A stretch of 64,000 bases of DNA, taken from Utricularia gibba (taxonomy: Eukaryota > Streptophyta > Magnoliopsida > Lamiales > Lentibulariaceae). The DNA lies in NCBI GenBank assembly GCA_002189035.1, contig NEEC01000009.1, positions 868,001 through 932,000 on the forward strand. The letters run 5' to 3'. This document shows, in pieces, positions 5,559 through 44,930 of the stretch. The stretch's first letter is position 1; the number at the start of each line of letters is the position of its first letter. The notes beneath the pieces are model-generated. The model searched no databases. It worked only from the letters and a program-made list of their open reading frames with translations, and was not told the origin of the DNA. The position numbers were made by a program, and so were the translations under genes.

Positions 5559-7844
5559 CTATGGATGATTCCGTCCCGCAGCTTTTCCGCAGAGAAGCAC
5601 ATTCGTCGGAATATCGTATTCGTTGGCAAGACTGGGCGTCGGATTGTAGACCCTGAGGTAGAGCTCTTGCCCCAGGTATCGTCTTCCCCACATTGCTGAT
5701 CTTAAATTCCACATGCCCTGATTGTCTAGAGAGACCAGGATCGTGGTCCATGAATTGGGGTATACCTGCAGAGCAAGATGAAAGTGGCGTGGGTGAATCA
5801 TTCATTCACTGTCTGAAACTGATCAGCGGTTGCAGAAGGTTAGAAGCTCAAGAGTTACCTGAGCGGTATGCCTTGTCAATGCATCAACAAGATTGTAAGA
5901 CTTTCTGCTGTCTGTTGTCCACTGCCCTGCTCCGTATCTGCTCAACAAGCAGGAACCAGATTAGCGCACATTGGCAGGATTTTGGAAGAGAGAAAGGAGA
6001 TGATGATGTAATCGTGGCTCCTACCCGACAACCCAGAAATCGTAGCCATCAAGATGCCATGACTGAACGCTGTCCTCGTTGTTCTGGAAGACAACTTCAA
6101 GAAACTCATGAAGAGAAGCCCCAAGGACAGATGTGCCAAAGCCTGCACCATTTCCATTGGGAGAACTCTGGATGGAGTTTACACTAAAAACACCAGGAAT
6201 GTTGAAGTAGTCTGCGAGCTTTAATGGAGTATCCGGATTGATATATGAGATCCCATTAACTGCATATCTCTGCTTGCCACCAAGGACAGGTGCTGAGTTC
6301 GCCAGCACAATGGTCCTCGATGGTGTTATTGTTCCGTAATGGAACGAGCCCTGTGGATTCGGCCTTGCAGCATTTGAGGTAAGATTCCATCTGAGATGCA
6401 ACCAGACATAAACTTAGAAGAACCCCATGTCTGAAAACTGAGGATGCATGAGCATCACGGGAGCTAGATAAGAACCTCCATCTAGTTCATACCTGAGGGA
6501 TCTGGCTTGGTCGATTGACCAATCAATTTCCGTTGTCGGACCGGCGGGAGAGGACCAGACACAGGAACCGTTGATTGGGAGTAGTGCAGGATTCCAGAAC
6601 CAGAGAGGACGGTAGGGGTGAACCTTGAGGATGCAACAATGTAGTAGTCGCGAGCAGGCTGATCCATGGTGACTAAAATTGTTGCAGTTTGGCCAACATG
6701 AATATCTAGAGAATCATAGACATTCTGGAGAACATTAGATCCTTCCACCTCAACGAGCTTCAGTTTATGCCCCTGAATTCTGAAGTTGAACGATGTGGAC
6801 AAGCCGACATTCGAAACCCTGAACATGTAAGTTCTCCCTGCAAAACCATGACAAGATTTGAGCATGAGGCCAAGAAATAAAAGAAAATCTGGAACTGGAA
6901 TTTGTTCAATGCAGCAAAAACGCATGTGTTGTAAGAAACACAGAACCTTGATTACAAGTGAACGTAGACCCCCGTTGGCCGTTGATAAGAATTCCATCAG
7001 GGAAGGGCAGTGGGCGCCCTGAATCCAAAGCTTGCTGCAACATCTGTCAGAGCAAATATGCATGATCACCCATCAAGCTTTTCTGCAAGTTTTCATCACA
7101 AGGTGCAACTAGCAAGTTGTTACCTTATGAGTAGAACTGTGCCAATCACCAATGAGCAAGCTAAAGTCTCCATCAGGCTTCGCGTACGGAACCGGAATGA
7201 CAGACCGTGCATAGATATTCAGAGCTCCAAAACCTCCAGCTGCTCTATGCATCTGAGTTGATGGGAAGTATGTGTAGCTCCCAATTTGATCCTTTGTTTG
7301 GAACTTATACGTGTAGTTTGAATTTGGTGGTACAGGACAGTTAGTTCCCAAAACACCATCTTGCCAGCTATTTTTCCTCTGCTTGATTCCATTCCTATCA
7401 TAGAACACAAATACAAATAAAAACAACTATTGGAGACATGACAGCAGCAATTTCAGACAAAGATCCTGTCTTTCCTCAAACAGCTTGAATCCAAATGTGT
7501 GGAAAATCGACTCACCAAGTTAAAAGAAAAGGCTGGTCTAATTTGTTCACTAAATTGAGAATTATGTTGTCATTGGTTACAGTATCAAGAGTAGGACCAG
7601 GGAACCGCCCGTTGATAAGAATGACCTGCAGATGATCCAACAACCAAACACTTTTCAGTACAAAAACTACTGAAAACACACAAAATAACTGAACATTGCA
7701 AACCTGCTGAGGAGTACCGAGTGGATAAGCAAATCCGTAGGTTACTGTCCAAGTATAGTACTTGTAAGCATCTTCAGCTCGGGCATCAGGGATACCCCAG
7801 AGAGCTAGAAGCGTGAGGAAAGACAGCAGCGTCCCCTGCTTCAT
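5559..7844 (-). CDS. SKU5-similar multicopper-oxidase-like protein, with one frame break
   Basis: Eight exons: 7844-7704, 7625-7516, 7394-7124, 7043-6947, 6837-6493, 6390-6025, 5937-5859 and 5765-5559, all with GT-AG ends. Restored length is about 538 residues, normal for the SKS / pollen NTP303-like group. A signal peptide (residues 1-23) is followed by three cupredoxin domains with family blocks such as NGIKQRKNSWQDG, FRVSNVGL and NVLLCGKAAGR. The type-1 copper motif HCHxxxH of ascorbate oxidase is replaced by GMWNLRS, so the protein is probably non-catalytic and extracellular or wall-associated. In exon 5 the frame slips by one base at 6546-6548: the upstream frame ends in SGPLP and the next frame gives AGPTTEIDW. 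The exon 5/6 phase also misfits by one base. A lost C explains both. Confidence 0.88.
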
Positions 7845-9357
7845 TTTCTGCAAGATTTCAACTTTATTCAGTAATCGAACTGTGGAACAGATTTAGGAAA
7901 ATGGGAGTTGCAAGCAAACATTTTTAAGCTACTGACAGATCTGATGAGGAGCACACACCCAGATCTGAACCGGCCGTCTATTAGCCAAGGAGACGGGAAC
8001 CCAATGAGGAACTAATGCTCAACCACAAAGGCAAGAAAATGGTGAGAACGCGGACAAGCGTGTTGCTTCAACACAGCTTGCATTAAATAGACAGGGATTC
8101 CCACTGCCCAATAGTGGTGGCCAAAAACTTCAACTAATTTAGCAAAGCAGCACAAGAAAGAAAAGACGAAAAAGAAAAGCAATTCTTTGAATACACTCCG
8201 CCGCTTCACTGATCCACGCGTTTCCGCGTTGCCTTGAACTTAATGGCTACACTTTTCGCACCGCTAGTCTCCTTCACTGTCGCCATGCCCGGTTCCTACT
8301 ACACTTATTTTAGAACACGAGACCCCACAGAATGGAACAACCGCTCACAGCTAAAAAAAACATTGTAGGACAAAATTATCAAAGCATGTAATAGTATCCT
8401 CGCAATTCATCTTCATTGGGATCCAAAGATTGCTCCTTTTAATCATGTTGTCTCTTTTCTCCACAAAACTTCATCAGACTAACTGCCCTATACACTCAAT
8501 GGATCTAACCCAAGTCAGAAAAAATGGTAACAGTTGGTAATGATGCAAACTCCATGATCGGAATCAGTCCTACACTAACACACTAGAGCTGCTCATTAAC
8601 TTCCCAATTCCCCAACTCTCCAGAAATAAATGAATCCCACCATAACGAAAATCAGTGTTGTAAAGATGAGTTTGAAAAAATACTATGTTATTTTTAAAAT
8701 ATTTGAAAAAAAATAAAAATTATTACATATATATATTGAATGTATTATTTGATTTATGTATAGATTTATTTTAATAAAAAGATGCCGCGTGAACGAATTA
8801 TTCGTCGCCAGCTGGGGATACGTGGTCCCACTTTTTGTTATTTTCTTTATGGATTTTTTTTCTTCCATATTTACGTTTCTGTAAATTGGGGTTTTTGATG
8901 CCTTCGAAGGCCGGGAAATTGGATCACCTGAACTCCATGGCGTGGGAGAGCGTTTTTCCTTAGGAATGGGGCGGGAGAGAGTGGCAAACGGTCAGGTGGT
9001 CGGAGAAACGGCTAACTTGGGATATGATGATTTCCCGATAGTTCAACTGGAAATGCCAATTATGGAGTGGACTAGGCTTTCCTGTAATTCAGGTGCGCCG
9101 GAATATGTTTTTGTGCTTATTTGATTTGAGGGTTGGATGCTAAAAATAGAAAGTCAAAGCGAAGCTTCCTTCCCTGGGTAGGAATGGAGGGAAAAGGTGT
9201 CTTGGAGGGAGTGTTATCAGAATTCGTCGGCCGTATTTTCCGGTGACAACCGGGCTCCGGCCGTCGGGGTTCTCTTTCTCCGTTCGCCATGTCTTTATTG
9301 AATCTATACTCTTGAATGGAAACAAAGATCACAGCTTGGTGGGGGTGTATGTAAACC
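7845..9357. other. Intergenic, SKS upstream and MAPKKK upstream
   Basis: This holds the 5' region of the minus-strand SKS gene and the leader of the plus-strand MAPKKK. An AT-rich block lies at about 8680-8790. A short upstream reading frame starts with ATG at 8898 and ends within 25 codons, before the MAPKKK start. No other gene is recognised. Confidence 0.5.
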
Positions 9358-11802
9358 ATGCCTTGGTGGCAGGGTGGGTCGAAATTGCATTCCTCCGATG
9401 ACAGCATCATCGTAGGAAAACCGGGTTTCATTGCCTCGCGGCGAAATCAATTCTTCAATAGGGCTAAGAAGTTGAGGCAATGTAACGGGAATGAGCCGGA
9501 ATTGTGGCGGTTAACGGGAATTGTTCAGGGTTCTCCGGGAAGGAGTGCGCCTGCGTCGCCTCAGCCTCTGCCGCACCCAGAATTGTTGCGTGATCCGAAA
9601 TTTTCCGACTCAGGATCATCGTTGCCTCTTCCATCTCCTGATAATCTTCAGAATCTGAGAGGCGATGGGGATAACAGAGAGGCGGCTGAGGCTGTTGAAG
9701 TCACTGACATGAGCAACAGCCTTGAGAGGTAAAAAGGGCTTACTCCAGTTTCTCCGTTGTCCCGATTCCCTGGGGAGTTTGATAGTATCTAGGTATTTTT
9801 TTTGTACATGGAAGCTCTTTATGTGCTACTTTATTTGTGTTCTCATGAGCAGACCCGTAAGGCAAGATGGAAGGACCAATTTAGATCATTTCGAAGAACG
9901 GATATCTCGGAAAGTGCCTGAGAGGCAAAAGGAAAAGGAGAAGGTCTCTAGCGACATTAATATTTCACTTGGTTTTCCAAATGCTCATCTTTCTAGCTTT
10001 GGGCTGAGCCCCCCAAGGAATACTATTTGGCCAAGTTATTACCTGGATCCACGAGGTGCTTTACAAGTCTTGTCTGCTCCAGGCTTCGGTTAGGAATCGA
10101 TGTCCAAGTTTATGCTGCCAAGTGCCTTTTGAGAAAAGCTCTAGTATTGATGTTTCTATTGAAATAAGTCCCAGAAATGTTGCCTATATATCTTCCACAA
10201 GTCCTCCACTGCCTGCATCTCCATTGACCTACAAGGTGTCTTCTGATTCTCCACTGGCACGGTGGGATAATGTTACTTCTCAGGCTGCAGTTCATCCCCT
10301 GCCTTTGCCACCAGTGCTTGCTGCTTCGCCTCAGCCCCCTCTGATGTCCAAAGTGGGATGTAAATCCGAGACTTCGGGAATTAGCAATCCCTCACAGACG
10401 TATCCAATTTCTATGGCGAGATTTCAACCTGGAAAAAATGAATGGCAGAAGGGAAAACTTATAGGAAGGGGAACTTTTGGAAATGTTTATGTAGCTACCA
10501 ACAGGTATCTGCTGTCAACTATTAAATTTGAAACTTGTTTTGTCCATAAACACATTTATATCATTAGGGTGACAGGAGCATTGTGTGCTATGAAAGAAGC
10601 TGATATTTTACAAGATGATCCTAAATCTGCAGAATGTATTCGACAATTGCAGCAGGTTGTTTATTTACCTCACCTTCTTTTCATAATGCATTTTCACAAA
10701 AAGGTGTTCGTCACTTCTGTTTCTTTCGTCTCAGGAGATTAAGGTCCTTAGCCATCTAAAGCATCCCAACATTGTGCAGTATTATGGTAGTGAAATCGTA
10801 TGTAGTTCTCTTTGGCTGAGATTAACTCTATCTTGCATCATGATACCGTATAAAGAATCTTGTTGTTCCATGATGATGCAGGTTGGTGATAAGTTTCATA
10901 TATATTTGGAATATTTGCATCCTGGTTCAATCAACAAGTTCGTCCAAGACCACTTTGGAGCAATTACGGAGTCTGTTGTTCAAAGTTTTACCCGCCATAT
11001 TCTTTCTGGGCTGGCTTATTTGCACAGTAAAAAGACAATACACAGGTGATAACAACCTCTTAATGTCTGTTTTGAATTTCTGGTACCAGCTGACATGTTT
11101 TAGCCATCTCTGCTGAAAGGGACATCAAAGGCGCTAACTTGCTTGTCAATGCTTCCGGTGTAGTCAAATTAGCTGATTTTGGAATGGCAAAGCATGTAAT
11201 GATGTTGAGCCTTCTTTGGTTGAAAGTGCATTTCTTATCACAAGAGCTTACATTCTTTGATTTACAGCTGACAAGCCAAACGGCATGCTTGTCAATGAAG
11301 GGAAGTCCATACTGGATGGCACCCGAAGTAAGAGACCATTACAGAAATGTTTTCTACCTTTTAACTATTCACCAAACGAAATCCTGATGACCGGATTTAT
11401 CCAATCAGCTGTTGCAGTCACCAGCTCAGACAGATAATACTTCAGATGTTGCTTTAGCAGTTGATATATGGAGCCTGGGATGCACAATTATTGAGATGAT
11501 GAACGGGAAGCCCCCTTGGAGTGAGTACGAAGGCGTAAGTAGCCATGTGTTCACTTGTACACTGTTCGGTTGGTTTGCTGTGTATCATCAGTTCTTGACC
11601 CTTTGGATTCCAGGCCGCTGCCATGTTCAAGGTTCTACAAGAGACTCCACCATTTCCTGAAACCATGTCGCCCAATGGCAAAGATTTCCTGCGATGTTGC
11701 TTTCAGAGAAATCCCAAGGACCGGCCAAGTGCAAGTCAGCTACTAGATCACCCATTTCTGAGCCATTCCCACCAGCCAGAACCTTCAAAAAATTCTTGGT
11801 AG
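9358..11802 (+). CDS. MAPKKK (MEKK group, MAPKKK3/5-YODA-like)
   Basis: Ten exons: 9358-9728, 9853-10055, 10123-10504, 10568-10655, 10735-10797, 10882-11045, 11120-11195, 11268-11327, 11409-11534 and 11614-11802, giving about 573 residues. The start MPWW is the one I know from YODA-type MAPKKKs. A Ser/Pro-rich regulatory half precedes the kinase domain. Motifs: [11 protein letters not shown] glycine loop, CAMKE with the catalytic Lys, HRDIKGAN catalytic loop split by an intron, [17 protein letters not shown] activation segment and [12 protein letters not shown]. It phosphorylates MAPKKs in the cytoplasm, in immunity or development. The intron 10056-10122 is only 67 nt and is inferred from frame compatibility; that junction is the weakest part of the model. 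Confidence 0.88.
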
Positions 11803-13925
<2,123 letters not shown>

Positions 13926-14716
13926 GAAGGTTCATAACCGTAATCGGAGTCACTCAGAATAGTGTATTCCGCTTAGCTTGCAGACCGAAAGATGGTGATA
14001 AAATGGGACGTGTGCTTGTATTACCTTATGTTCAGCATGTTGCATGGAGTACAGCCACGGCGTTTCCGTTCATCGGAAAAGCTAAGACTTCGGCCGGAAC
14101 CGACTCCGGCTGGCCGGAATCATCGACTTCATCCTCAAAAAGGAGCTAACATCCAAATTAACTAAGTAAATCCACTACATAATTACAATTCCGGAGTGCC
14201 ACGTAGGCTTCAGCAGTTGGAGAAAGGACCACCGGTTGCTTGCTTGCTTACATTCATGATCTTTAATTATTGCTCTGAAGTCTGAACTTTCTTTCTGGAA
14301 GTTTTCTTTTTCTTTTCCTTTTCTTTTTTAGACTGGTCTGGTCTTGGCGACAGCATCCCATCGTCAAATTGTCAATTGCTTTTTATTACCTTCGACGTGG
14401 ATTCCTGCTCTCCCGGCCCTCCCTCCCTCTTTCACTTTCTCTCCTTTCTCAACCCAGGAATTCGATTTTGAAGAGGGAGCCCACTGAGGGCTCTTCTGAA
14501 GCTCTTCTGAAGCTGGCAGATTTGGGGGGCTTGGCATCCGGTGCTGTGAGTAGGTTAGTGGGTTGATTGTTATTGAGGAGGAGGGGGAAGAGAAGGTTAG
14601 CGGTTGATTGTTGGGGTTGGCTTCCTGCTCAGATGTATTGATTGATTCTTGGTTTCCGGTGCGAGGAGCAGTGGTGTGTTCAGAAGGTGTACGGACTGAT
14701 CCGTGGTGAGACGAGA
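13926..14716. other. Intergenic, leader of the CDPK-related kinase
   Basis: Peroxidase 3' region, then a CT-rich stretch (about 14300-14450) that probably lies in the promoter or 5' leader of the kinase. A minimal upstream frame (ATG TAT TGA) starts at 14633. No gene is seen. Confidence 0.45.
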
Positions 14717-17509: not shown

Positions 17510-17932
17510 TGCTCCTCAAATGGGATCAAACTTCAACACCCCTTGTCCTCACGTGTGATGAAAACCAAGATCGGTACCAACTCAGAATACATGGAGAACT
17601 GCCAAGATGCTGAAATACAAGCTCCCATCTGCAACATTTTCAAATCAAAATCTTCCGGGGTGGGGTGATTTCTTATAGAGAATCTGAGCTTGTGTCGGTT
17701 TTCCAATGCTGGCTACAGCAGTTTAAACCGATGGCTGAGCTTGGATTCTAGAGAGGATAGCATTCTTTTAAGGTCATCTCTGGCAATGGTCCTTGTATCA
17801 TTACTGTATACATGTGTAATCCCCACCTTCTAAATGTAACGACATTTGTGATGAAGTATATTATAATTTTCCCCTACTAGTACGATTGAGTGTAGACAGC
17901 AGAAGCGATTGTGCAAGAATTGCTAACCGTGG
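17510..17932. other. Convergent 3' regions of CRK and MAP1D-like genes
   Basis: No coding features. It must contain the 3' UTRs of both genes. Confidence 0.5.
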
Positions 17933-20173
17933 TTAACACTGAGTTAGTATTTGAGCACCATCGTTGGTTATCAAAATGGTATGTTCAAACTGCGCCGAGA
18001 GGCTGCCATCCTCGGTAAGCACAGTCCAGTTATCGCTCCATACTACAGGGTGGATGCTGCCCATCGTCAACATTGGCTCTGCAGAAAAATGAATTTGAAA
18101 ACTCTTCAATATTTTGATGGAGGTAACATGGAGAGCACATGCAGGAGCGACTTCAGGTTTGGGAAGGATGATTACCAATGGTGAAAGTTTGGTTAAGGAC
18201 CATTCTTCCACGTCCATTGTTTCCTGAAAGAAAAGTATTCTTATGAACTAGAGATCGAAAAGGAATGTGATTCCCACGTAGGTGCAGTCAGCAGATGTGT
18301 TAAAAAGTTTGAGCCAAAAGAATTACTGTAATGAAGGATCACAGGATCACTGTGGAATAGTTGCCCGACTCCATGTCCAACGAAATGCTGCACGACTCCA
18401 TACCTGTATTTATCTGCATGATCACTACACACAGAGATCAGTTTTTACAAGGCATACTCTCAGTAGTGGTGAATGGTGCCTGGTACAAGGTTCTGAACAA
18501 AAAAAAAAAAAAGAGCACGAGATGCGGTAAATGGCTCACTGTATTGTCCGGCCAATCTTGTTAAATTCGACTCCAGGTGCACATATTGCAATTGCTTTAT
18601 CAAGGCATTCTTTGGTGACCTAAAGCAAGGAGCAAGTCTTGATGAGAAAACCATCCTGGCCATGGTTTGATAAACAGGTGGCTCGGATCATGCTGAAAGT
18701 TTGTCTTTTAGATGCACAGAAACTGCAACAGCGAAGGAATACCTTTACTAAGTTTCTGGAATCCTCATCGACATCCCGACAAAAAACGTTGCTGATGTGT
18801 CACCATGGTAACCCTGTAGGCCATATATGCCAGTTTACTGAAGCTAAGCGATTAGGGAATGGCTGCTAAGGTTTCAATAAGCACAACAGATGCCTCGTTA
18901 AAAGAATCAAAAAATGCTTCAGAGAACAAGAATTTTCATGGAGCATGTGCACTGAAAGATAGATCACTTACATTCAGATAAACTGTAACATCAATGTTGA
19001 TGATATCACCGTCCTGAAATGAGAGAGAGCTCATGAACCAGAAAGATGAATCCATGCAATCACAGAAAGTGAAGTGCCAACCTCGAGGGAACGGGAATCT
19101 GGAATTCCATGGCAAATACACTCATTCACTGATGTACACACACTCTTTGGAAATCCTCCATAACCAAGTGGAGATGGATATGCTCCATTGTCGATAATCA
19201 TTTGATGCACTGCCTCATCGATTTCATCAGTTGTGATGCCTGGCTGAACAAGAAAATGGAATTTCTATCTACATCAACTTCTCAATGCTAGCAGCCAAGA
19301 ACAAGATTTAAATAAGCCAAGCAGAAAAGAAAATTCATTAATGCATGAGAAGAATCAGTCCATTTGCATAGACGAAACAGAGCTGCTTTGAGAATCACCT
19401 TTACTAAAGTTCCAGCATACTGAAGAACCTGGGCAGCAAGATATCCCGAAGCTCTCATGAGCTCCACCCCTTTCTCGTCATGTATTTCAGGCTTAGTTGC
19501 AATTCCAGGTAGCTTCTTGGTTTTGACATACGGAGGCCTCTGTATGTGTAATGGCACGGGCCGTGGTGGAGATACTTTACCAGGCTTTAGTGGCTTCCTT
19601 TTACTCCCTACCGTGTTATCCATACTTCTTAAAAAACAATTACAGAGAGTTGAGGACAAGAATAAAAGAGCAATCAGACACTCATTCACAAGTAATAAAA
19701 CGAGTTAAATATCCAAATTTCCTGAAAAATGCAACATGGCATACCTTCTGTTGAATAATGAATTAGCTAACCCCGACAAATTCCTGGGCAGCTGCATATA
19801 CACAAGGCCTCTTCCTAATCAGAAAAATACAGCATTAAGCCTTAGAAAGAGTGTTTGGAGCAACTGCCATGAATTTAAAAAATCTATCACCAATGCCATC
19901 ATTGTGATTCAATGAACTTTTTTCACACACATAAAGCCAGCAAATTCTCGATCCTTTTTTCCAAACCAGAGATTCCCATATTCCACACAACGAATATAAA
20001 TAAAGAAAACATTCATACGGGCACAACAGCATCCGGGGCTGAGAAAAAGGGAACCAACCGTGGCTGACTTTGATGTAACGATTAAGTGAATTGCGGGAAA
20101 CGGAGGGAAGAAATCGGCAGTCCCCCATAAAAGTGGAGATCAAACGAGGATGAATTGAACCAGCGGCCACCAT
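17933..20173 (-). CDS. MAP1D: Organellar methionine aminopeptidase 1 (MAP1D-like), with one frame break
   Basis: Ten exons: 20173-20059, 19814-19745, 19627-19399, 19243-19082, 19013-18972, 18813-18743, 18619-18540, 18424-18327, 18223-18176 and 18078-17933. Restored length is 353 residues. The basic, Ser-rich N-terminus looks like an organelle transit peptide, and the zinc-finger extension of cytosolic MAP1A is absent. All five metal ligands are visible: two Asp in the NIDVTVYLN...GYHGDTSATF region, His in GHGVGQLFHSDP, Glu in TIEPML and Glu in QFEHTIL. It removes initiator Met from plastid or mitochondrial proteins. Exon 6 is 71 nt where 72 are needed: the T6 run at 18781-18786 should be T7 to read FFC...DVDE; as written it meets a stop. 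Confidence 0.9.
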
Positions 20174-23691: not shown

Positions 23692-24996
23692 TCATTCAAT
23701 TGCAACAAATCCCCCAACAAAATGGAGAAGACTTGGGAGTAATAAGCTTACATGCATAGGCATTTCATCTATGATGAGACCACTGGATTCTTCGAGGCTT
23801 TTGAGGGTAACCACTTCTCCCCAACAACCATGTTAATGACTAGTCCATCTTTAAACAACAAGAGAAAATAGAATAATGACATTAGACATCAAATGCAAAT
23901 CATAAGAAGGTGAAGAAAGACTAATGTCATTTCCTTTTACTTCTTAGTGTACTACTACCAATAGAAGCCAAACCATTTTCAAGGCAATATAGGTCTCCAT
24001 AAAGTGAGTATTATACTTCATGAAGGGCGAGTATATAATTTTCAATCTTCTTGCAAAAAAACATGCCTGCTGATAAGCATGTTGACATACGCCTCATGTA
24101 CGTTTCCTAAATAAGAAAGTGAATCATCAGTAAAAGATGCCCCAACAACAACAAACATAAGTCTAAGAGCCATGAGATCAAGCCTTCCTGCATCTGATGT
24201 TCAAAAATGAAGAGAATCATTCCTATGAGAAACAAGATTCAGTAACATTTGTTCCACTTGGCATCTCTTGAGAGTTTCTTGTAATACCTTCTTTGCAGGG
24301 AGTTCATAATTGATTAGAAGCCGAGCACCAAGAGGGAGTTCCCCTGAGCCCACGAGAGGGAGGCAGGCATCCGTGACAACAACCAAATGCGACTTTAGTT
24401 TATCCTCCGTATCTGAGTCTCCATTTGTTTCCATTCCTCCATGCCTATTCCATCTCTGAGTTGCCTGCCTAAATTTCCCAACAACCTGGGCTCTATCTCC
24501 TTCCGAAAGGTCGCTATACTAGAACATCATCGTTGAAATTACACAGCCGCATATGCACAGGATATGTACTTCAGTGATGTAGCTAAAGGGCAGTAGATAC
24601 CAATGATGAAACACAAATGCATGAAGACAGATTTGATAAATTTAAGTACACAGCATCAAGCTCGTCCCTTGAGTTGCAACAAACAACCATCGGCAGGGAA
24701 GGGCGCCGACCGGCCATTCCCAAAAGATCCACTAGCGTCTCCTGTTTTCCATTTCCATCAGTTTCAGTGCTAAAAACAGCGTACAAAATCGATCAACAAA
24801 CCATTTTGAACTGGAGTCTATCCACAGCGAGGTAAAAATGGCGTTGCGGGCTGGAAAAAAAACAAATGAACGCTAAATTCATTCATGACAAATAAAACGT
24901 GAAATTCGGGATCAATACAATCAAGGGAAGAAAAGGCAACCTGAAAGAAGCGGACTGCGAGGGAGAAGTTGAGAGAGTAGATTCGCTGGCGTCCAT
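23692..24996 (-). CDS. Helicase-C-like protein related to DEAD-box helicases, with one frame break
   Basis: Five exons: 24996-24941, 24769-24601, 24518-24288, 24106-24067 and 23848-about 23692. The product resembles a small plant protein keeping only the second RecA-like domain of eIF4A/DEAD-box helicases: VVCCNSRDELDAV, then YSDLSEGDR, VVVTDACLPL (equivalent to the helicase TD segment), LINYELPAKK and ETYMRRM. The first RecA domain with Walker A and DEAD is absent, so it is unlikely to be an active helicase. The intron after exon 4 starts with GC (CAG|GCATGT); no GT alternative keeps the frame. In exon 5, GGGG at 23819-23822 should be GGGGG to read VVGGEVVTLKS. The final stop assumes no further splicing. 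Confidence 0.72.
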
Positions 24997-25336: not shown

Positions 25337-28300
25337 ATGGCTTCACGCTTCGGTTCCAGAGGAAGCTCATATTGTTATATTTCACGAAGGAAATTTTCAA
25401 AAACGAGAGCTACTCCTAGTTTTGTTATTTGTAGAGATTTGCGGCAAAAACCCAGAAATACTGAGGATTTGGCAGGCCCGAGTGGTTCACGATCAGAAGG
25501 TAAGCATCTATCTTTTCTTCAGGATAGCCTATGTTCTTTGACCCTCGACAGGAAAGATTATTTTTTTTATCTGCTGGTGGGCAGATGAAATGGTTAACAG
25601 TGTCTTTGCAATTCTCACTATTGACCGGTGGGATTCGTTGAACGGGATGAAGTATAAAACTGCATCACTGAGGCCTGTGCACGGGGGTTGGCTATGAAGT
25701 TCTTAAAGTGGGTTTTGAAGCACCCAGGTTTGGATCCTACTCATATAATATACTTGTACTGCATTACAACTCACATTCTTGTGAGAGCAAGAATGAATGA
25801 TTGTGCGAGTTTAAATTTGAAGCGATTATGTGAAATTGGTAGCGGATCAAGCTCCATTTTACAAGTACTTATGGATACATATCGTCTCTGTAATTCAAAC
25901 CCTGCTGTTTTTGACCTGTTGATACGGGTTTATTTAAGAAAGGGAGCAACTAAAGAAGCTTCTGAGGCTTTCCGTTTTATGTGTAGTAGGGGATTTTTGC
26001 CGTCGGTTGGTACCTGCAATATGATCCTAGGGACACTAGCAAAGAAAGGAGAGTTTGAGTTACTATGGTTGGTTTTTGGAGAAATGCTGGACAATGGCGT
26101 AAGTGTAAATGTTGGAACATTTAACATACTATTGAATGTACTTTGCCGAGGAGGTGAATTGAGCAAGGCAAGATATTTGCTTAGGAAAATGGAGGAGAGT
26201 GGCTATGCTCCTACCTTGGTTAGTTACAATACTGTACTCAATTGGTACTGCAAGAAGGGGATGTATAGAGCGGCTTTTCAGCTGGTGGATCACATGTGTT
26301 GCAAGGGTGTCAAGGCAGATGTATGTACGTATAATGTTCTTATAGATGATTTGTGCAAGAGTAACAGAAGTTCTAAAGGATATTTACTCTTGAAAAAAAT
26401 GAGAAGTAGGTTGGTGATTCCTAATGAAGTCACCTATAATACTCTCATCTGGGGATTTGCTAAAGAGGGCAAAATTGCAGCTGCAAAAAAACTTTTTGAT
26501 GAGATGAGCAGGGTTAATGTTTCACAAAACGCTGTCACTTATAATGGTCTAATTGATGGCCACTGCCAGGCAGGAAATTTTGTTGACGCTTTTACGGTTC
26601 TTAGAGAGATGGAAACCATGGGAATATTACCCAATGAAGTTACTTATGGAGTCATTTTGAATGGACTATGTAAACACTGCAATCTAGAATCTGCTAAAAT
26701 TCTACTTGATAGGATGAAGCTCGATGGATGCAACATTAATCATGTAATGTATACTATGCTCATTGATGGACACTGTAGAAGTGGTGCACTAACAGATACT
26801 TTACATTTGCTAGATCAAATGAGGAATGATAATGTATATCCTGATCTTATTACATTTTCTGTTCTTGTCAATGGTTTTTGTAGACTTGGGAAGCTTGATT
26901 CTGTGAAAGAAATAATTTGTAAGATGTTCAGACATGAACTCAGACTGAACAAGATTGTGTATTCAACTTTAGTTTACAATTTATGTAGACTTGGAGATAT
27001 TGATAAAGCAATAAATATGTACATTTTCATGCTTAGAGATGGTCATTTTCCCGATCATTTCATCTTTAACGTTCTTATATCTAGTCTCTGCAAAAGGGGA
27101 GATGTTGAAGAGGCAATGGCTTTGTTGAATGATATGATTAGAATTGGCCTTACTCCAAATTCTGTTACATTTGATGCTGTTATCAGTGGCTATGGAAATG
27201 CTGGACATGTATCAAAGGCATGTGAGCTATTGGATGAAATGGTTGCATTTGGTTTTCAACCTACCTTCTACACATATGGAAGTCTGCTTAAAGGGTTGTG
27301 CAATGGAGGAAATCTTGGGGCAGCAGTAGAAATTTTTAATAAACTTCGAAAAGTTCATGGTGCTTTGGATGTCTTTTTCTACAACATAATGATATCTGAG
27401 ATGTGTAAGCAAGGCCATTTTACGTCAGCTCTGTCACTTGCATCTGAGATGGTGCATAGTAATGTTATTCCGGACAGTCATACTTATGGAGGCCTTATCT
27501 CTGGTTTATGTCGAACTGGGAGGGTTGTAGCAGCTATTCTCTTGCTGGAGAGGGGCCTGCAAAGAGGAACTTTTACCCCAAACCAGTTCATGTATTCCAG
27601 TATCATTAGTGGGCTTACAAGGATCGGGCGGCCGCAAGATGCGATTTTTTTCTTTGGTGATATCATGAAACATTGTCCAGATCCTGATATAGTGACACTG
27701 AATGCAGTCATAGATGCATGTTCTAGAGCAGGTAAACTGGAGAAGTTATATCAGATTATTGAATTCATTGACGCCAAGGGCTTGTCTCCCAATTTGGCTA
27801 CATACAACATTCTGTTACATGGACAATCAGCAAGAAGAAATATTTCAGGGTGCTTTGCTTCATACAGAGCTCTCCTGAGCAAAGGCTTTGTTCCTGATAA
27901 ATATACATGTCATTCTCTGATCCTTGGCGTCTGTAACTCTGATATGCGGGATATTGCCATTAAGTTTCTGAAAATGATGATAATCAAAGGGGCTCTTCCA
28001 GACGAGTTAACATTTGATATGCTGATCAGTTGTTATTGTCACAGAGGTGATATCCTGAAAGCCTGGGATGCGTTCAATATCATGGAGTCCGTAGGCTTCT
28101 TACCAACAGAAGAAACCTTCTGCTCTCTTTTCTATGGACTTAAGAGGATATCTCGTTTTCGAGAGTGCCATGGACTACTTCATGTAATGATGAAACATGG
28201 TGTCGTTCCTACAACCAGACAGTGCAGCGATTTAGTAACAAGCATGTGCAAAAATGGTGATGTAAGAGGTGCAATGCAGGTAAGGGATGAGATCGTGGAA

Positions 28301-32093: not shown

Positions 32094-35015
32094 ATGTGGC
32101 ACGAGGCTCGTCGGTCGGAGAGGAAGGTGCACGATATGATGGACGCAGCACGGAAACGGGCGCAGCGCCGGGCCATTTACCTGGCGAAGCGACGTGGCGA
32201 TCCTCAGCAATCAATTCAGGCGGTTGGATCTCGCTGCCGTATCCAGCGAGATGATGCCCTGTACCAAGCGACTCAGGATCAGGAGACCTTGTAAATTTGA
32301 GCTTGCACTAATCTTGATTTTTGTTATGGAGACTACTATAGCAACCTCAGCCAATCTGATCGTTTCATACTTCGTTTGAATCCTTTCAGGATACCTTGGA
32401 ACGGGAAAGAAGATGTTTTGATTGACAGGTATTTCAGTTCCAAGGTTTTCTTGCCATGTATATGGAAGACAAGGATGGTCATTTATTGATATAATCTTAA
32501 CCGCAGATTTGATGGCCGAGCCCTTCTTGATTTCATTCGTGACACTAGCTCTCGTCGTGTCCGAGCTCCTAAAAAGACCGAGGAAGAGGAAGAGTTAGAG
32601 GAGTTTGTTAATTTTGAGCGTTACCGGGATTTAATTAAGCATCGCCGTAGAGGATGTCGGTACTTCTTTGTTTTTTGCATGCCATTATTTTCCTTCATTA
32701 TATTGTGGAAGCTTCAATTGTGCTCACAGTTATTCGAAAATGTCTTTATGTTTTTAATATTGCTGAACTGGTTTGCAGTTACTGATGAGGATGGTCTACA
32801 TCATGTTAACCAAGAAATAGAAGCTAAGATCACTGCTGCCATTGGATCAGACAGGTTCATGAATATTAAATTTTCAAAACATTCAATCCATTCTTTTGTG
32901 TTGGATTCAGGAGTAAGTTCAAACTGGGCTTATTTACTCCTTTGCACCTCTCGAATGCCCTGCTTCTATTGTTCTTTTTTCCAGTCATTGAGTGCGCAAC
33001 CCATTTTTTTGAATTTTGCACATGTGATGTTAGGTCACATGCTACTACTCCTGCAGTCAAGGGAACCTATTCACAAGTAGGTTTTTCATATGATGGTGGA
33101 CAAGATACTTTGCAGTATTCAGATGGCGATGAGGATGAGGAGGATGCCGATGAGGAAGAATTTAATAGTGATGACAGTAATGATGAAGCAATGGAGTCAA
33201 TCGCCAAAGAGTTTGGAGTAAAGAGGTATGGATGGCTCGTATATATGGACAAGAAGGCTAAGGAGGAGGCAAGAAGGCAGAAAGAAATCATCAAGGGAGA
33301 TCCTTCAATTGTAAGCTTGAATAGTGCTTTAAAGGTGCTTCTGTAGAACCATGTTAGAGCGCTGAACATCCTCCAATGTGATAACATTTTCAGAGGAAAC
33401 TTAGTCGAAAGGAGAGAAGAAAAGCATCTCAAATTGAAAGAGAGCGAGAAAGAGAGGCTGGCAGGTTTACTGGAAGTCGAGTACATCATGATCCATATCG
33501 GTAACTATTTGATTTCTTCTTTTACTTTCGAAATTTTACATTGCACATAATTTTTAGCGCGTCTCTCATCAGGGATTCTCGGAGAAGTCCTACTTATGAA
33601 GCTTATGCACGTCACAAAAGGTAGTTTCTTTCATTACCATGCCACAATTTAAACTGGTCTATCTAACAGGTATCATAGGTTCAGGTCAAGGTCCAGGTCT
33701 CCATCTTGCTCTCCCTCTCGATCAATGAGATATTCGTATGGACGTGATAATGATGACAAGACTCGAAGCAAAGACAGTATTCCCAAAATAGAGTACATTA
33801 CTGAGTTTGGAGGCCCAATCAATGGGGAAGGGCCCACTCTTGAAGGATATTCTCCGCCACCCTCTCCCCCATCGCAGGCTGATGTGGTGAATCGGTCGGA
33901 GCACTTGACCTTTAATACTTGCACGATTGATTGGACAGTTTTTACTCTGATGCAGCATCACCATTTTGTTACCTGGCCAAGCCTTTGTGGTTAATACTAA
34001 ATTAAGTCCTAAGTTTCAAGCTCCTTGTTATATTACAAGGGAGGTGAAGAAGGGAGGGAGCTTCTTAGGCGATTTATTCTTGATTCGCCATTTACAAGTT
34101 CATCCGAGCCTGCTGTGAGCATAGCAAGCATGCTTCTAATACTTCTTGTTTCGTGCAGGCCACCCTCAGGCCAGATACTTGAGGCTCTCTATGTGGATCC
34201 TGCATCTGGTGTACCCCTTGATAAGGATAGAGAGAAGCTATTGAAGACATCAACAAGGTTTTTTTTTTTCTTTTCTGCATCAGTCGATGATCTTCTCCCT
34301 GTTTGCATTCATGACTTCTGCTTTTCCAACAGTACCTCGTCTGCACGGGCAAAGCTGAGTAAGACAGCTGTCAGCAAGAATCTCCCCAAGCAACCTGGGA
34401 GAAGAAGGAAACGCCCCAGGAACGTCTTAAGCGGATCATGGAAAAACAACTAAACAAACAAAGTATAATTGCTGATTTTGGCAACGAAGCACTGATTCTA
34501 CTCTGATGTGGCCGCATTTTGCAGAATGCTTACCTGATTTCTTCCTGCTGTTCTTTTACTACCAGCTTTTGTATTTGATGTTTCCTACAATGACGTGCAG
34601 TTAAAAAGGACACGGCAATAGAAATGGCGAAGAAACGAGAACAGGAGCGTCAGAGACAGGAGAAGCTGGCCGAAACCAGTCGCATGAGTCGACACCAGCA
34701 CCGAAGCAGAAGCAGAAGCAGAAGCAGAAGCCGAAGCCGAAGCAGAAGTAGAAGCCGCAGCCCCAGTAGCAGTCGGTCTCCCAGGTACTATTGGTTTAAC
34801 AGTGAGAGGATCACTCCACGCCCACCCTCCTAGATGTTGCTCATTGTCCGTCCGTCCGACCTGTCAGCAGATACAGGCGCAGCCGGAGCCCAGGCAGGAG
34901 AAGCTCCCGAGCATACGCATCACGATCTCCGTCAAGATCCCATTCTCGCTCTCGTTCTTCTCGGAGGTCCCGCCCCTCGCGTCGCTCCTACTCCAGTTCT
35001 CGGTCCCCCAGGTAG
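32094..35015 (+). CDS. CLASRP: CLASRP/SWAP-type SR-related splicing protein, with one frame break
   Basis: Twelve exons: 32094-32290, 32390-32428, 32507-32655, 32779-32854, 33034-33310, 33394-33500, 33573-33620, 33679-33894, 34159-34257, 34333-34462, 34601-34784 and 34871-35015. Restored length is about 555 residues. The N-terminus MWHEARRSERKVHDMM and the block FDGRALLDFI match CLK4-associating SR-rich proteins (alternative splicing regulator, suppressor-of-white-apricot N-terminal type). An acidic stretch, a region with ITEFGG, and a C-terminal RS domain with (RS)n follow. It is a probable nuclear speckle splicing factor. In exon 10, GGG at 34397-34399 should be GGGG: the corrected frame reads EKKETPQERLKRIM and joins exon 11 (KKDTAIEMAKKREQ) in phase; as written it stops early. 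Confidence 0.9.
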
Positions 35016-36904: not shown

Positions 36905-38065
36905 ATGGTGGACGTGGACCGGAGGATGGCCGGAATGAATCCAGCGCACGTGGCAGGACTGCGGCGGTTATCGGCGAGGGCGTCGGCGTCCGTGCCGTCG
37001 ACTCCGAGGAACAGTCAGTTTTCGTTTGCTTCTCTCGCGGATGGAGTGATCACCCATCTGAAACAGTGTGGCATTACGGTGCAACAGGGGCTGACGGAGG
37101 CGGAGTTCGCGGTGGCGGAGGCCGTTTTCGGATTCGACTTCCCACCGGATCTGCGGGCGGTTTTATCCGCGGGTTTGCCCATCGGAGCGGGTTTCCCCGA
37201 CTGGCGTTCGCGGTTTCACCTACGTGCTCTGATCGACCTTCCGATGGCTTCGGTTTCGTTACAAATCGCTCGGAATTCGTTCTGGGCGAAGTCGTGGGGG
37301 CCAAAGCCGATGGATCCGGAGAGAGCTCTGAAGATTGCGCGGAATGCACTGAAAAGGGCTCCAATTTTGATACCTATTTTCGATCGATTTTACATCCCCT
37401 GCAACCCTTGTCTCGCCGGGAACCCCATCTTCTACGTTGATGAGGAGAAGGTGTACTGCTGTGGCTTCGATTTGTCCAGCTTTTTCGACGGAGAGTTTCG
37501 CAGCCACGGCAAGGACCAATCCCGAAGCTCCGGCGCCTCCCGGGGAAGCCTCGATTCGCACTCCGGCAGAAGCACGACGCGGTGGGTGGAGTTCTGGAGC
37601 GACGCAGCCGTGGATAGCCGCCGGAGAAACTCAAACTCTTCATCCTCAACCTCTACCTCAACCTCCTCCTCTTCCTCCCCTGACCGAGTCGACTACAGAT
37701 CCCACCGTCCCAAATGGGTCGACGACTACGTGGGCCGGATCGGGTCGTTTCTAAGAGAAGGCGGGTGGGCGGAATCCGACGTTTCGGAGATGGTCGACGT
37801 GGCAGCATCTGGACTGTTCAACGACGAGATGGTGATGTTCGACAATCGAACGGCTCTCGACGCTCTTCTCTTGAAAGCGGGTCGGTTATCCGACACGCTC
37901 CGGAAAGCAGGGTGGAGCTCCGAGGAAGTGTCGGACACGCTGGGATTCGATTTCCGCCCCCGGAAAACGAAAACGAAGCCGGCGAAGAAAGTGCCGCCGG
38001 AGCTCGCGGAGAAGCTCGAGAGACTGGCCCAGATCGTAAACGGGTCCGGCATCCCACGTTACTGA
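36905..38065 (+). CDS. Single-exon SMI1/KNR4-like plant protein (At3g50340-like)
   Basis: An intronless 386-residue frame starting at the ATG at 36905. Residues about 60-110 contain [22 protein letters not shown], split here as [13 protein letters not shown] then [13 protein letters not shown], the SMI1/KNR4 signature, with GFPDWR after it. A Ser-rich linker (about 220-260) leads to a conserved C-terminal half with [15 protein letters not shown] and a basic tail. The coding GC content is clearly higher than its flanks. This plant group is uncharacterised; SMI1/KNR4 folds elsewhere act as binding scaffolds, and I do not infer more. Confidence 0.85.
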
Positions 38066-38767
38066 AACGCGGACCTGTTCAGCACACCGCATCCTGTAAA
38101 GGGCCCCGCTGTATACTCACAATGTTCCCTTGTCTTCTTCCTGAGGATAACATCACACGACGCGCTCTTCTTACCCTCCCTCCCCTGCAAGCTCTAAGAA
38201 ACAACGTTAAGCAATGTCGGATGGTTAAAAACCGTTTACCAGGTCCCCATTCCCGTGTCTTAATCAGACACGGATCCAATTCCAGGCTCGACTAGCTGGA
38301 GTCCATAATTGGTGAATCTTCTCGTCCCGTGACCCAAACTCTACTGCTCCTACCGCCAAGGCGGCTGGGTGTTTCCAGCTTCTTACCATGGTTCACTTCA
38401 AGAGTGCCACCATGGGCAGATCGCCCTGTACATCACATACAAGAAATGCAAGTTACTTAAAAAATATGCTTATCATCGGGTCACATGGGATTATTGACAA
38501 GACCTGCCAACTCCATCTAGACCCCAGTTTCCTCTGGAATTATTCCTTCCCTGGAGTCCTCCTTGTCATCATCTCTCGAGCTATGGCCTCCAGGAGTGTA
38601 ACTCGCAGGGCTTCACCGTAGAATAATCTATAAATGCATTTTGTTGAGGTTGAAGATTAGGTAGGAAACCTGAAAAGTATGGATGAGTGAGGAGAACAGA
38701 GCCTGGCATGCAGCTACCGCAGATATTCCTGGTGCATCAGTCTCGCCAGTGAATCCATTTTCCTCAG
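38066..38767. other. Region upstream of the remorin exon; 5' exon not resolved
   Basis: 3' region of the SMI1-like gene, then sequence that should hold the first exon or exons and promoter of the remorin gene. I could not find a convincing start exon. Confidence 0.4.
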
Positions 38768-40094
38768 ACGATGAGGACTTCTGGTTTGCCTTTACATTCC
38801 TGTCCGGGAGCGCAAGATTGTGGGGATAGCAGTGTCTGTGATTCTGCGGTAAAGATGACGAACTGGAGCTCAGATCCAGCGTCATTGCCTGGGAGCAATA
38901 ACAAGAGACACATAAGTGCTGCGGCTTTGATGCCCTTCAGCAGTGGTAGAAGAACATTACCCTCAAAATGGGATGATGCTGAGAGGTGGATTACCAGCCC
39001 TGCTTCCAGTCATGGAGGTTACCGGAAACCGTTGGATCATACACAGAGAAAGGCCAAGTCAAAGAGCGGACCTGTAGGACAGACGGGCTCGTGTACTTCC
39101 CATATTTTTTGGCCCCGGCACTTGCCACCAGTGGGCGCGTATTGAAGAACTCACCTCTTGCCGCTGGCGTTCTGCTGCCTGATCCAAGCTTGGGTCTTCA
39201 TTTCGGGGCTGGCAATGCCACGAATGTCGTCTCGAAGAGTGGGGATTTGCCTGGTTTATTATCCTATTTGGACACTGGAAGCCCAGAATCAGGTAACTCT
39301 TTGCTATCAGATTCATGCCCTGCTTCCTTCTGTAACACCAATGCTGTCACAGATCCACTAAATGGCAAGTTGGTGGAGGAAGAGATTCCTCAACAAGAAA
39401 AGCAGGTTGCCACTCAAATGTGCCCGCATTCACCTTCCAAGGATCAAGTATTGACCTCTATTCAACATTCGTCACCAGCGCCCACAATGGAAGCCACTGT
39501 AAGTGAAGTAATTCGAGATGTTCAAATAAACAAGGACGCAGAAAATACAAGCAAGCAGTCCGATAGGCGAGGTATAAAGAAGAAGATTATGGTAACCAAT
39601 AAAAAAGAGCACTTGCCTTCAAAGTGGAATAGCTCAGAAGTATCACAGAAATTGTCAAAGTACGCTTTTGTTGACTTTGAAGCTGTTGAGATTATGAAGC
39701 ATCACATCTAAGGGTTCGCATCTGATTCATTCCTACAGGTTGCAAAGGGAGGAAGCCAAGATCTCTGCATGGGAAAGCTTGCAGAAGGCAAAAGCAGAGA
39801 CAGCAATGCGCAAACTTGAGGTTTGTACAAAACCTGTATTACATGAAGCAACAGACACAGAAAAAAGCAAGCTCTGAAAAAGTACAACAAAATTGCGTTT
39901 TACAGATGCAGTTGGAGAAGAAGAGGTCTGCATCCATGGACAGAATATCGTTCAAGCTCCGACAGGCACAGACAAAGGCTGAAGCCAAGAGAAACATGCT
40001 TTCAATGGAAGATCCAGCAATGTCTTGGAGGGGCTGTAAACATTTCGCCATTTGTTTCTCTGGGTCGGCTTCTGCAACAAGGGGCAGCCCCTAG
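38768..40094 (+). CDS. Remorin C-domain protein, 5' end unresolved, with one frame break
   Basis: Three exons are supported: about 38768-39659 (acceptor TTTTCCTCAG), 39739-39820 and 39906-40094. The first holds a region I associate with plant remorin-family proteins (NKRHISAAALMPFSSGRR, LPSKWDDAERWI, KSKSGP). The last two give the remorin C-terminal coiled coil, with LQREEAKISAWESLQKAKAE and LEKKRSASMDRI. Remorins are plasma-membrane-associated scaffold proteins. The frame slips at GGG 39085-39087: adding one G joins KSGPVGQTG to LVYFPYFLAP and restores phase with the next exon. The start codon probably lies in an unrecognised upstream exon. The last 25 residues differ from the Cys-rich end known in some relatives. 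Confidence 0.75.
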
Positions 40095-40551
40095 GATGGA
40101 ACATGGAAGGTTAGAGCATTATGCATCAAAATTTTGTTGTTCCATGCCATTTATCAAATCCAGCCCAGGAATCGGAGATTAAAAATACACCACCACAGGC
40201 ATGAAGAGAAGCATTGTGATGTCAAGTGGCCTTGCTCATTCCATGTTTATTAATTTCGAATGTAAAAGGTCCTCTGGTTTTTGGTTACTCAGCAACAAAA
40301 AGAAACTGTAATTTCAAGAGACCATGTCCTTTAAGGTAAATATTGAAGGTCATCAATGAGTAATTTGGCATCTCCAGATAAGGTATACATATGCAGGTTT
40401 ACTACATAATAAGCAACAGCTCATTCCATCAGAACTTTTATGAGCAGGGATATATCTTGTTCAATAGTCCATGAATGATCAATATCTAATTTCAATTCTA
40501 AAAAAAGCCCTACAGCCAAATAGAACCAGACCCGTGAGCCATCAATCACAC
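40095..40551. other. Remorin 3' region
   Basis: No coding features recognised between the remorin stop and the end of the minus-strand unidentified gene. Confidence 0.5.
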
Positions 40552-41597
40552 TCAGGAAGGCCTATACCTGAAATCTGCACGTGAAGGTCTGCCACCAACC
40601 ATACTTCCCCCAACAATATAACCCCACTGCCAACAAAATACCAAATCGCTAAGATGCCATTCAATTACAAGCTGCATGGTATTATCCTGAGTATTAAATG
40701 ATATTAAATGAGAGTAAACACTAGTGAACGCAATCGACCTTAACACCATATCCTGTAATAATGGCACGCAGTGGTCCTTTCGAAAAGCAAAATTGTTCAG
40801 GTTGATTCCTCATGAGATTCCCACTTGGCAGAGGATCATCTAGTGGTGCATCTGAATCAATAGCAACCTGAAGGACACGACAAAAAGAAAATATACAGTT
40901 AGCTCTCAGGATGAATTCAAAATCTCAATGCGGCATCCTAAAAAATAATTTCTTATTCTGGAAGTATACATATTTTCGTATGTAGAATGAATAAATTTCA
41001 GATATCAGCAGACAATCTGCTGCTCACATATTTCATGCGATTCTCGAGCCACACGATCTGCAACATCTCCATCAGTAAAAAGCACCTTATCACACCTACA
41101 TATTTACACTCACAAAGTATGATATTTACACCTGCTGACTTGCATATCGTTATCAAATTAGTAAAACCGCAACGCCTAACTTCAATACAACACAGTCGTC
41201 CAGCCCCCCAAATATGCTCATGTATTCTCGAAGCTCATCGTCTCCACTTCCCAAAGTATTCCTAGAACCATAAAAGAGATATTCAACAAAATTCATCACG
41301 ATTTACAAGAAAACCCCAGAACAGCAAAGGAACTTAAAAAAAATCTTGCAACAAGCTTCCGTTCCGACTTACGATGCAGAAAACAATCGAAAAGCACCAT
41401 GTCTTCACTGTGCCCTCCCTCTCTCTCCCCTCCACCTCGCGACTCGCTAATCACTCATAGCACTCATCCTGCACACCAAAACAATAGGGACACCTCTGTC
41501 TCACAACAAACGCTTACCATCGGCGTAATCCATAACATCTTTGATCAAAACGACAGCATTCTTCCGAAGAATCACACGCATAAACTCACAAAAGAAT
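40552..41597 (-). CDS. Unidentified spliced gene, partial model
   Basis: I do not recognise this protein. The best-supported part is the last two exons, 40867-40739 (43 codons, starting VAIDSDAPLDDPLPSG) and 40626-40552 (24 codons, WGYIVGGSMVGGR... to a stop). They are phase 0, and the 112-nt intron between them has good GT-AG ends. Upstream on the same strand, two more coding-like pieces have splice signals: one ending at 41518 (ILRKNAVVLIKDVMDYAD|GTAAGC) and one from about 41264 to 41185 (after TTCTAG; GSGDDELREYMSIFGGLDD). These two do not join in frame as written; a one-base loss next to the acceptor would explain it. A third piece near 41085-41030 (FTDGDVADRVARESHE) is possible. Confidence 0.45.
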
Positions 41598-43903
41598 ATA
41601 AAAGGAAGCAGATGCGTCTCATAACCGACCTTACGTTTCGTATCAAACTGTGGATTTCAAAACCTTGATCGCTCTCCACGCATCCTACCACAACTCACTC
41701 CTATCCCCGCTGGGTTACCTTATCGCGGTCAGATCACAACTGCCAATCGCTGCAATATCGTCGGCGAAAATAGCCGCGCCGATGCACGCTATATTTCATA
41801 TTACAAAATAATATTAAACAATTTATTTTCAATAAAATCTAAAAAAATTACTGTGACATTCTTATATCAATATTTTTTAAATATATATATTTTTAAATGG
41901 TGTTGTATCCACAAAAGTTTACGTGATCATTTTTCAAAACTGCCCTTCCGCCATGGAATTCCTCTTTTGGAAGAACCGGTCGGATGGGTTCGGGTTTCAT
42001 GGGAGCGATTGCCGGTCCGGCCTGAGAAAACTAAGCCGAAAAAGAGGCATGGCGTGTTCGTGTGGACACATATGGTCCATGTAACACCGACCCTAAGAGA
42101 AAGCACATTGCTTGGTTTTCGTTTTCGATGAAAAGGGTGCCGGGTGGGTGTGCGAGCAGCCGCATGTGGCGCTGCTGGTGGAGCCGCATCGCGTGTACTG
42201 CCTGGGAATGTGAGAAGGAAATGGCTTGTTCCTCAATGATGAGGAGGGCACATGGCTGCGCACCCTCTATCTTAACCCCACTCACCGCTCATTACTAGAC
42301 AGATACGCAGTGATTTTTCAAGAACCAGACATATCAGATCCTTAATCCTGCTATCTTGAGCACTCACAGTCCAGAAATCCAAACTCCTCATACACAACTG
42401 AAACATTTTGATTTTACTATTGAAACTAAGTATTTAATGGGTTAAACGAGAATACATGAAATTCAAATGCATAAAAAATTTAAATCATATTAAAAAAGAT
42501 TAGATTCAATTAATTATTAAAAATTTGTAATTTTTTATTACTTGATTATTTTAATTTCAAATCACAATATGTGATTTTTTATTTCTAATATCCATTCTTA
42601 ATCCAACTAATTTTGTCATCTAAGTCTAATATGTTTATTTTCTTTAAAGCAATATAAAATTCATCTTGATCAATCAAACAGTGAAGTAAATTAAATGTTC
42701 TAATATCATGTTAAAATTAAGGATACAATAGATACGACAAATATATGTAAAATCTAAGTATATAATAAACATGAATTATATTAAAAAAATTAGATTAAAC
42801 TAATTACTAAATTTATAATTTGTTATATATATATTTATTTTAATTTAAAAGTTCAAATATGAGATTATTTGTTCTCATATTTACAGCATCATCAATGTGA
42901 ACCGTCTGTGTTACAGATCAATGATGCTTTAGAAATGAGAAAGGAGATGCTGGTGCGGCATCACCACATGGCTCATGGAGTGTTGGGTGCAGAATCCTGT
43001 TCTTGTGTGTTTTTAGGCGGAGAAGTAGAAAAAGAGATACTGTAAATCTATGGGTGTTGGTTCAATTTGGCCCACTTGGGCTGACGTGCAGATACGCTAT
43101 TGGGATATGCTGTTTCTGCCGGGACCGGCCGCCCGCAACAACTGTACCGACAATTTGTCCCCATCTGACTTGGGAGGCGTCGTTACCGGAGAAGCTGCTT
43201 CCCTCCCTACTTCACCTAAGCTTAGAAAACTCCGATCGTGCAGACGGCGTCGTTAATTTTGATGCTAATTCCCCTTGATACCATCGCGCACACAGCAGCT
43301 GCAGTGAATCTAATCTAATTGCTGTATTACATGGGGCTTTGACTCTGACTCTGAGGGAGAAGAAGAAGAGAAGATCAAAATAGGTTACTTGCTGCATGTG
43401 GACTTATGACGTGGGAACTGACATCATCCGCCATGGGCACTGGCCGAGGGAAGCTTCGTTGCGGCTTGCGGGGGCGGAGGCGGCGGCGTGCTGGTGCCGC
43501 CAACGTCCTACTGCGCGCCCACTTGCGGGTCTGAGGACCTGGGGGTGGCCGGACCCTCACCTAGGGGGGAGCCACGCGCGAGCCCCAAAATAATTAGGTT
43601 AAATACGGTAATTATTATTTTTCGAAGGAAGGGGGATGTAATTAATATTTATTTAGGAATATAAAAAATGTAAATTCATGTCATTTACTACATGGTGACA
43701 AATGAACACGTTTCTTTCAAGTTGCCCAATTGAAATACCCGGATAGCATACACGTGATTGTCGGAAAAATCTTTATACCCACGTTTCCTGTTTCTACAGG
43801 ATGCAGTGAACCGATTCGGGTCCTGATTCTGATCCCCCTTTAAATTACGCACACTGCACTTGATTTTTCTCAGTCGTTGAAGAGATTGGTCTTGTTTGCG
43901 GGA
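41598..43903. other. Intergenic, 2.3 kb, no gene recognised
   Basis: About 42400-42880 is strongly AT-rich. Short frames at 41853-42298 and 43003-43278 have no family features. The right end is the promoter of the next kinase gene. Confidence 0.5.
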
Positions 43904-44930
43904 ATGGAGGCGTGGGTTAGGGGACAGAGATTGGGACAGGGGAGTTTCGCCACCGTCGACTTGGCGGTGGGGATTGGCGGGAGTGCCTTTCTTCCGCCAT
44001 TGATGGCGGTGAAGTCGTGCTCCGCTTCTAGGTTGGAGGCGCTGGGGAACGAGAGGGTCGCGTTGGAGGAATTGAGGGATTGCCCACATGTTATTCGTTG
44101 CTTTGGGGAGAGTTTTTCTTGGGAGAATGGGGAAAGGGTGTATAACTTGTTGTTGGAGTTCGCCGCCGGGGGTCGTTGGTGGAGAAATTGCACAAATCTG
44201 AGGGTCGAAGATTGCCGGAGCCTGAAGTGCGCCGTTACACGAAGGGGTTAGTTGAAGGGATTGGGTATATTCACCGGCAGGGGTATGTTCACTGTGACAT
44301 TAAGCCGCACAACATCCTCCTGTGCCCAGAAAACGGCGTGAAAATCGCCGATTTCGGGCTGGCGAAGCGGGCCGGCAGCGCTGGGGGGAGCTACGGGGGA
44401 CGCCCATGTATATGTCGCCGGAGATGATCTGTGACGGGGAACAGGAAACACCGGCGGACATATGGGCTTTAGGATGCGTGGTAGCCGAGATGGCGTCGGG
44501 ATCCCCAGCGTGGCGGTGCTCCGATGTGGCCACTCTCCTCCCGAGAATCGGCCGCGGCACCGCAGTACCAGAGATCCCCGCCTCCCTCTCCGAACAAGGG
44601 AAAGATTTCGTCCGAAAATGCTTCATCAGAGATCCCGCCGCCAGATGGACGGCTGCGATGCTGTTGAATCACCCGTTCGTGCGAGAAATCGCCGCCGTTG
44701 AAAAACCCACGGCCTCTACTTCTTCCCCTAGGTGCCCCTTCGACATACAGAACTGGTGTTCAATTACATCTTTGCCCTCCTCCCCGGACTCCTCCGACCC
44801 GAATCCACTTTTCTTTCCATCACAAAACGAGTCGTCGGGCTCCCTCTCAGCTTCCAACCGGATCCAACCGCTGGCCGTTGATAAATTGCCCGATTGGTCA
44901 AACTCCACCCGGTGGACCCACATCAGATGA
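43904..44930 (+). CDS. Intronless MAPKKK (MAPKKK15-21 type), with two frame breaks
   Basis: Restored length is 342 residues from the ATG at 43904. The glycine loop is [11 protein letters not shown], followed by MAVKS with the catalytic Lys, [11 protein letters not shown] (catalytic loop), [18 protein letters not shown] and [12 protein letters not shown]. This matches the small, usually intronless MAPKKK17/18 subgroup, which acts in ABA and stress MAPK cascades. The Ser-rich tail after about residue 265 is typical. The coding sequence lies in three frames: one G is missing from the run at 44168-44172 (AAGG, then [10 protein letters not shown]) and one from the run at 44383-44388 (KRAGSAGG, then ELRGTPMY). 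With two added G bases a single frame spans the gene. Confidence 0.9.

Follow-up and report, generated by a model that had tools for sequence, protein, structure and literature searches.

Short insertions and deletions left by consensus calling have been described in several long-read assemblies, and the closest case is that of Streptomyces albus SM254, in which an HGAP + Quiver assembly at 262x retained 205 indels, of which almost every one lay in a G or C homopolymer (PMC4832174). An uncorrected HGAP/Quiver assembly of Plasmodium falciparum carried 25,352 indels against 1,798 single-base differences (PMC5964635). In continuous-long-read (CLR) vertebrate assemblies prior to short-read polishing, short indels gave rise to frameshifts (PMC8081667). 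For Utricularia gibba, a review gives a PacBio assembly at 88x made with HGAP, with a contig N50 of 3.4 Mb and 581 contigs (PMC5793159). The assembly considered here (100.09 Mb, 516 contigs) is probably a PacBio-only HGAP/Quiver assembly of this species. It resembles that of S. albus SM254 in its PacBio-only pipeline, its indels in G/C homopolymers and the danger to gene frames, but the latter is a bacterium, sequenced more deeply and then Illumina-corrected, whereas the U. gibba assembly, at 88x, shows no sign of such correction (PMC4832174). With P. falciparum it shares indels that far exceed substitutions; that genome, however, is AT-rich, and its errors lie chiefly in long homopolymers and TA repeats (PMC5964635). 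The vertebrate assemblies are alike in that consensus calling produced short indels that shift frames, but they come from another assembler and other organisms, and a run-specific bias is not described in the available part of the source (PMC8081667).

The window, meaning the whole stretch of 64,000 nucleotides that was analysed, is C505:868001-932000. Each site was examined by translation in all frames over 300 bases on each side of the run. The sites are as follows:

Site 1, 6546..6548, minus strand: SKS-like multicopper oxidase, GPLP / AGPTTEIDW; C3 (gene strand) or an adjacent T
Site 2, 18781..18786, minus strand: MAP1D-like methionine aminopeptidase, HGDTSATFF / RDVDE; T6 on the gene strand
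Site 3, 23819..23822, minus strand: eIF4A/DEAD-helicase C-terminal-like gene, INMVVG / EVVTLKSLEES; G4 on the gene strand
Site 4, 25683..25687, plus strand: start of a 1,067-codon PPR open frame; G5
Site 5, 34397..34399, plus strand: CLASRP-like splicing factor gene, LPKQPG / EKKETPQERLKRI; G3
Site 6, 39085..39087, plus strand: plant gene running on into a 242-codon frame, GPVGQTG / LVYFPYF; G3
Site 7, 44168..44172, plus strand: intronless MAPKKK-like kinase; G5; the C402 homeolog is one base short at the same run
Site 8, 44383..44388, plus strand: second break in the same kinase as site 7; G6; the homeolog reads GGGAGGG, in frame
Whole kinase gene, 43904..44930, plus strand: contains sites 7 and 8; its pieces lie in three frames

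At all eight sites the translations place a frame break at or adjoining the run, spread over seven genes, and at all eight one base is missing. A family-like open frame stops near the run each time and resumes in the frame expected for one missing base. No stop codons were found in the frames flanking the breaks, either in the window or in the frameshift-aware GRAS and KCS alignments described below. A sequence-only reading of the window had claimed eight one-base losses in seven genes. Its count and sign stand, but the run that it named at site 1 is not fixed: at GGTCCTCTCCCGCC the missing base may be either C (CTC CCC GCC) or T (CTT CCC GCC), and the SKS homeolog reads CTT CCG GCC at this position. 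The break therefore cannot be assigned to the C3 run specifically.

The same reading held that conserved family blocks lie on both sides of every break. This holds for sites 1, 2, 7 and 8, where support from Pfam, the structure 8khm or the homeolog is strong, and less well for sites 3–6, where it is weaker. At site 1, a PF00394 (Cu-oxidase) match precedes the break and a PF07731 (Cu-oxidase_2) match lies farther along the continuation, while the SKS homeolog (C402:1382-1384 kb) runs in a single frame through the same point. The MAP1D-like gene at site 2 matches PF00557 and, queried with an X at the break, aligns gaplessly with human MAP1D (8khm) before and after it (E 1.9e-20). The kinase falls into three pieces in three frames, covering positions 3-82, 91-149 and 158-263 of the Pkinase profile, the first of them a weak match (E 0.029). 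At site 3 the eIF4A C-terminus aligns in register, again weakly (E 0.06). The PPR frame at site 4 has its own ATG just past the break, where the gene could begin, and the break depends on an upstream block that we take to be conserved. Open frames lie on both sides of sites 5 and 6, for whose flanks no Pfam or PDB relative was found, and presumed family blocks occur there. For the flanks of sites 4–6 no database support was found, and the breaks there are read from these family blocks.

A collinear duplicate of the window lies at C402:1382070-1423462, in which a second copy is detectable for only some of the window genes. The kinase homeolog in this block is likewise one base short in the G run of site 7, and at site 8 its run is interrupted by an A (GGGAGGG) and the frame is intact. 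A more distant kinase paralog (C402:623 kb) is in frame throughout. Among the window genes, Ka/Ks was calculated for the kinase alone, and the comparison with its homeolog gave 0.12 for the segment that precedes site 7, 0.23 from there to site 8 and 0.43 for the remainder, the last value being inflated by an out-of-register stretch near the segment end; wrong-frame controls for the pair gave 0.97 to 1.6. These values show that the codons past the breaks have been kept under purifying selection in a frame that such breaks would abolish.

The same one-base shortfall is found throughout the assembly, in other gene families and on other contigs. GRAS genes mostly have no introns. Six-frame profile matches to PF03514 in the whole assembly gave ~26 intact GRAS domains against ~18 genes in pieces. 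By their coordinates, a one-base shortfall is seen at 15 of the 21 GRAS frame junctions, while the other six are ambiguous (one base long or two short); more than 50 bases separate the pieces at four junctions, where introns are possible. Frameshift-aware alignment resolves one of the ambiguous six (L029) as two losses. Coordinate arithmetic likewise gave a one-base-short junction in three of seven HSP70-type single-intron genes. Many of the GRAS genes and all of the HSP70 genes were judged by coordinates alone.

For 59 GRAS and KCS loci, intact relatives were aligned with a frameshift-aware aligner, and frame changes adjoining inserts of at least 45 bases were taken as introns and discarded. 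Twenty calls remained once filters on flanks and introns had been applied. A curated tally of coding sequence in these loci comes to about 15 losses against one gain, a figure that depends on curation, as it excludes intron junctions and mirror calls, drops events located at the start codon or upstream of it, and adds the two close losses of L029. Losses in L042, L044 and L022 were left out as possibly upstream of the start codon, as was one of two called gains in L058, positioned before its start codon; the gains in L016 and L020 were excluded as mirror images of the losses in L015 and L021. The sole remaining gain is in L058, with TTCC for TTC. Window and loci together give losses to gains of ~23:1 (P 0.009 even with losses three times as common as gains). 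The sequence-only reading had found no opposite-sign break. None was seen in the window here either, but elsewhere in the assembly the L058 gain makes such errors rare rather than absent.

The breaks also favour homopolymers. In break zones the homopolymers are longer, with a mean of 3.9 against 2.9 in random zones of the same genes, and the fraction of at least 4 is 0.55 against 0.23 (0/20,000 resamplings as extreme). The run consists of G or C in 15 of 20 break zones, a preference that fits the HGAP + Quiver precedent (PMC4832174). A census of runs found seven G/C runs of 7–8 bases where 17.5 were expected (0.4) and an excess of A/T runs; this pattern agrees with consensus error but is confounded by composition and selection. 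As a very rough estimate, a break occurs every 2.5 to 5 kb of coding sequence, and the density inside the window resembles that outside it. L030 and L031, two GRAS paralogs that each share about 63 percent identity with one common reference, are interrupted at the same C run, and the breaks of L029 and L032 fall near the same motif. Loss at one run in separate genes is predicted by base-calling error that depends on run length.

Some loci were assembled twice. The same GRAS locus is contained in C316 (38 kb) and in C412, and over 4.1 kb the two differ by one substitution and ten gaps, with all the missing bases absent from C316. Seven gaps are of one base and the others of 2, 4 and 7; some of those longer than one base lie outside homopolymers, and one of the ten breaks the GRAS frame. 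These gaps are unlikely to be real divergence, because real divergence consists mostly of substitutions. By local alignment, C338 and C328 are identical over 2,236 bases, with no gaps or substitutions, so errors are unevenly distributed. An HSP70 break on C304 recurs at identical coordinates in the duplicate C241. Taken together, the perfect C338/C328 match and the break shared by C304 and C241 imply that the error must recur reproducibly at some runs. The small contigs C316, C338 and C241 seem to be second copies of regions in C412, C328 and C304, and could be used for measuring assembly error.

A bias towards deletion is not by itself peculiar to sequencing error, and real frameshift mutations, in genes that have recently become pseudogenes as the plant genome loses DNA, have to be weighed. 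The U. gibba genome is shrinking, and the block that contains the window is duplicated, with no second copy detectable for several of its genes. Against this, the affected genes are conserved ones, their flanking frames are free of stops and their lesions are of one base only, not mixed. Codons past the breaks are still constrained, as the kinase Ka/Ks values indicate, and at least a third of GRAS genes would have to be dead. A truly decayed gene looks different: the plastid psaA copy in C515 has many in-frame stops. Real mutation is very improbable as the general cause. The psaA/psaB pair had been considered as a plastid control and was dropped, as C515 is apparently mitochondrial, so the decayed psaA serves for contrast only. 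This contig (267.5 kb) also carries cox1, and C515:66000-75999 (L069) appears to be a plastid-derived insert, with psaB intact and psaA decayed, in a contig that is probably mitochondrial.

Missed start codons or intron edges could mimic breaks at sites 4, 5 and 6, a reading favoured by the usable ATG past the break at site 4 and by the want of database relatives at sites 5 and 6. Sites 1, 2, 7 and 8, within or between conserved domains, are not so explainable, and the weaker sites share their sign and have a run at the break; wrong gene models at some of the three are a minor possibility. Since the same run is one base short in both homeologs, site 7 might instead be one old mutation, inherited by both and overcome by frameshifting at the ribosome or by slippage during transcription. 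Yet this kind of lesion is also present in unrelated genes and at unrelated runs, the only copy broken at site 8 is the one with an uninterrupted run, and the distant paralog is wholly in frame, so that an old mutation here is scarcely credible. Scarcely more can be said for short runs that are real throughout, with many genes expressed through slippage or frameshifting at G/C runs; we know of no plant system that bypasses frameshifts in dozens of genes.

The breaks are almost certainly errors that remained in the consensus of a PacBio continuous-long-read assembly whose polishing used only its own reads. In the proposed course of events, the reads would undercount homopolymer bases, most often in G or C runs, the consensus step would fix the run at one base too few, and the genes would be intact in the plant itself. 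Counterpoints are that several breaks sit in runs of just 3, that one gain occurs, that some of the C316/C412 gaps are longer and outside homopolymers, and that the C338/C328 match and the break common to C304 and C241 call for a reproducible error. We infer the sequencing chemistry and polishing as the cause, and likewise the status of each single site as an error. Base-calling or consensus error, which the sequence-only reading had put first, is backed by the genome-wide sampling, the doubly assembled locus, the recurrence at runs and the selection beyond the breaks. What was observed belongs to an already known kind of assembly artefact, and that reading had diagnosed it rightly.

Two features of the assembly were noted in passing. 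The P450 open frame at 3621-5207 contains a 75-base stretch (4527-4601) with GT...AG bounds that resembles a short intron; being in frame and stop-free, it would be read through by ORF callers. Six contigs have lengths in bases that divide exactly by 2,500 (C1 8,500,000; C2 6,192,500; C409 2,492,500; C505 3,452,500; C507 642,500; C515 267,500), perhaps an effect of trimming or windowing.

A truncation of DCL3 has been published for U. gibba, with 5' RACE by its authors (PMC8333044). The idea that it is a homopolymer artefact was considered and is unsupported, given that RACE and the finding of only three Dicer dimerisation domains in the present assembly, which fits truncation.

The value of these observations is as a warning on this assembly, and their effect is practical rather than conceptual. 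At least a third of GRAS genes appear broken in it and, should it be the reference for U. gibba, short reads would be needed to check the gene counts, the seeming losses of genes and the claims of truncated proteins that are based on it.
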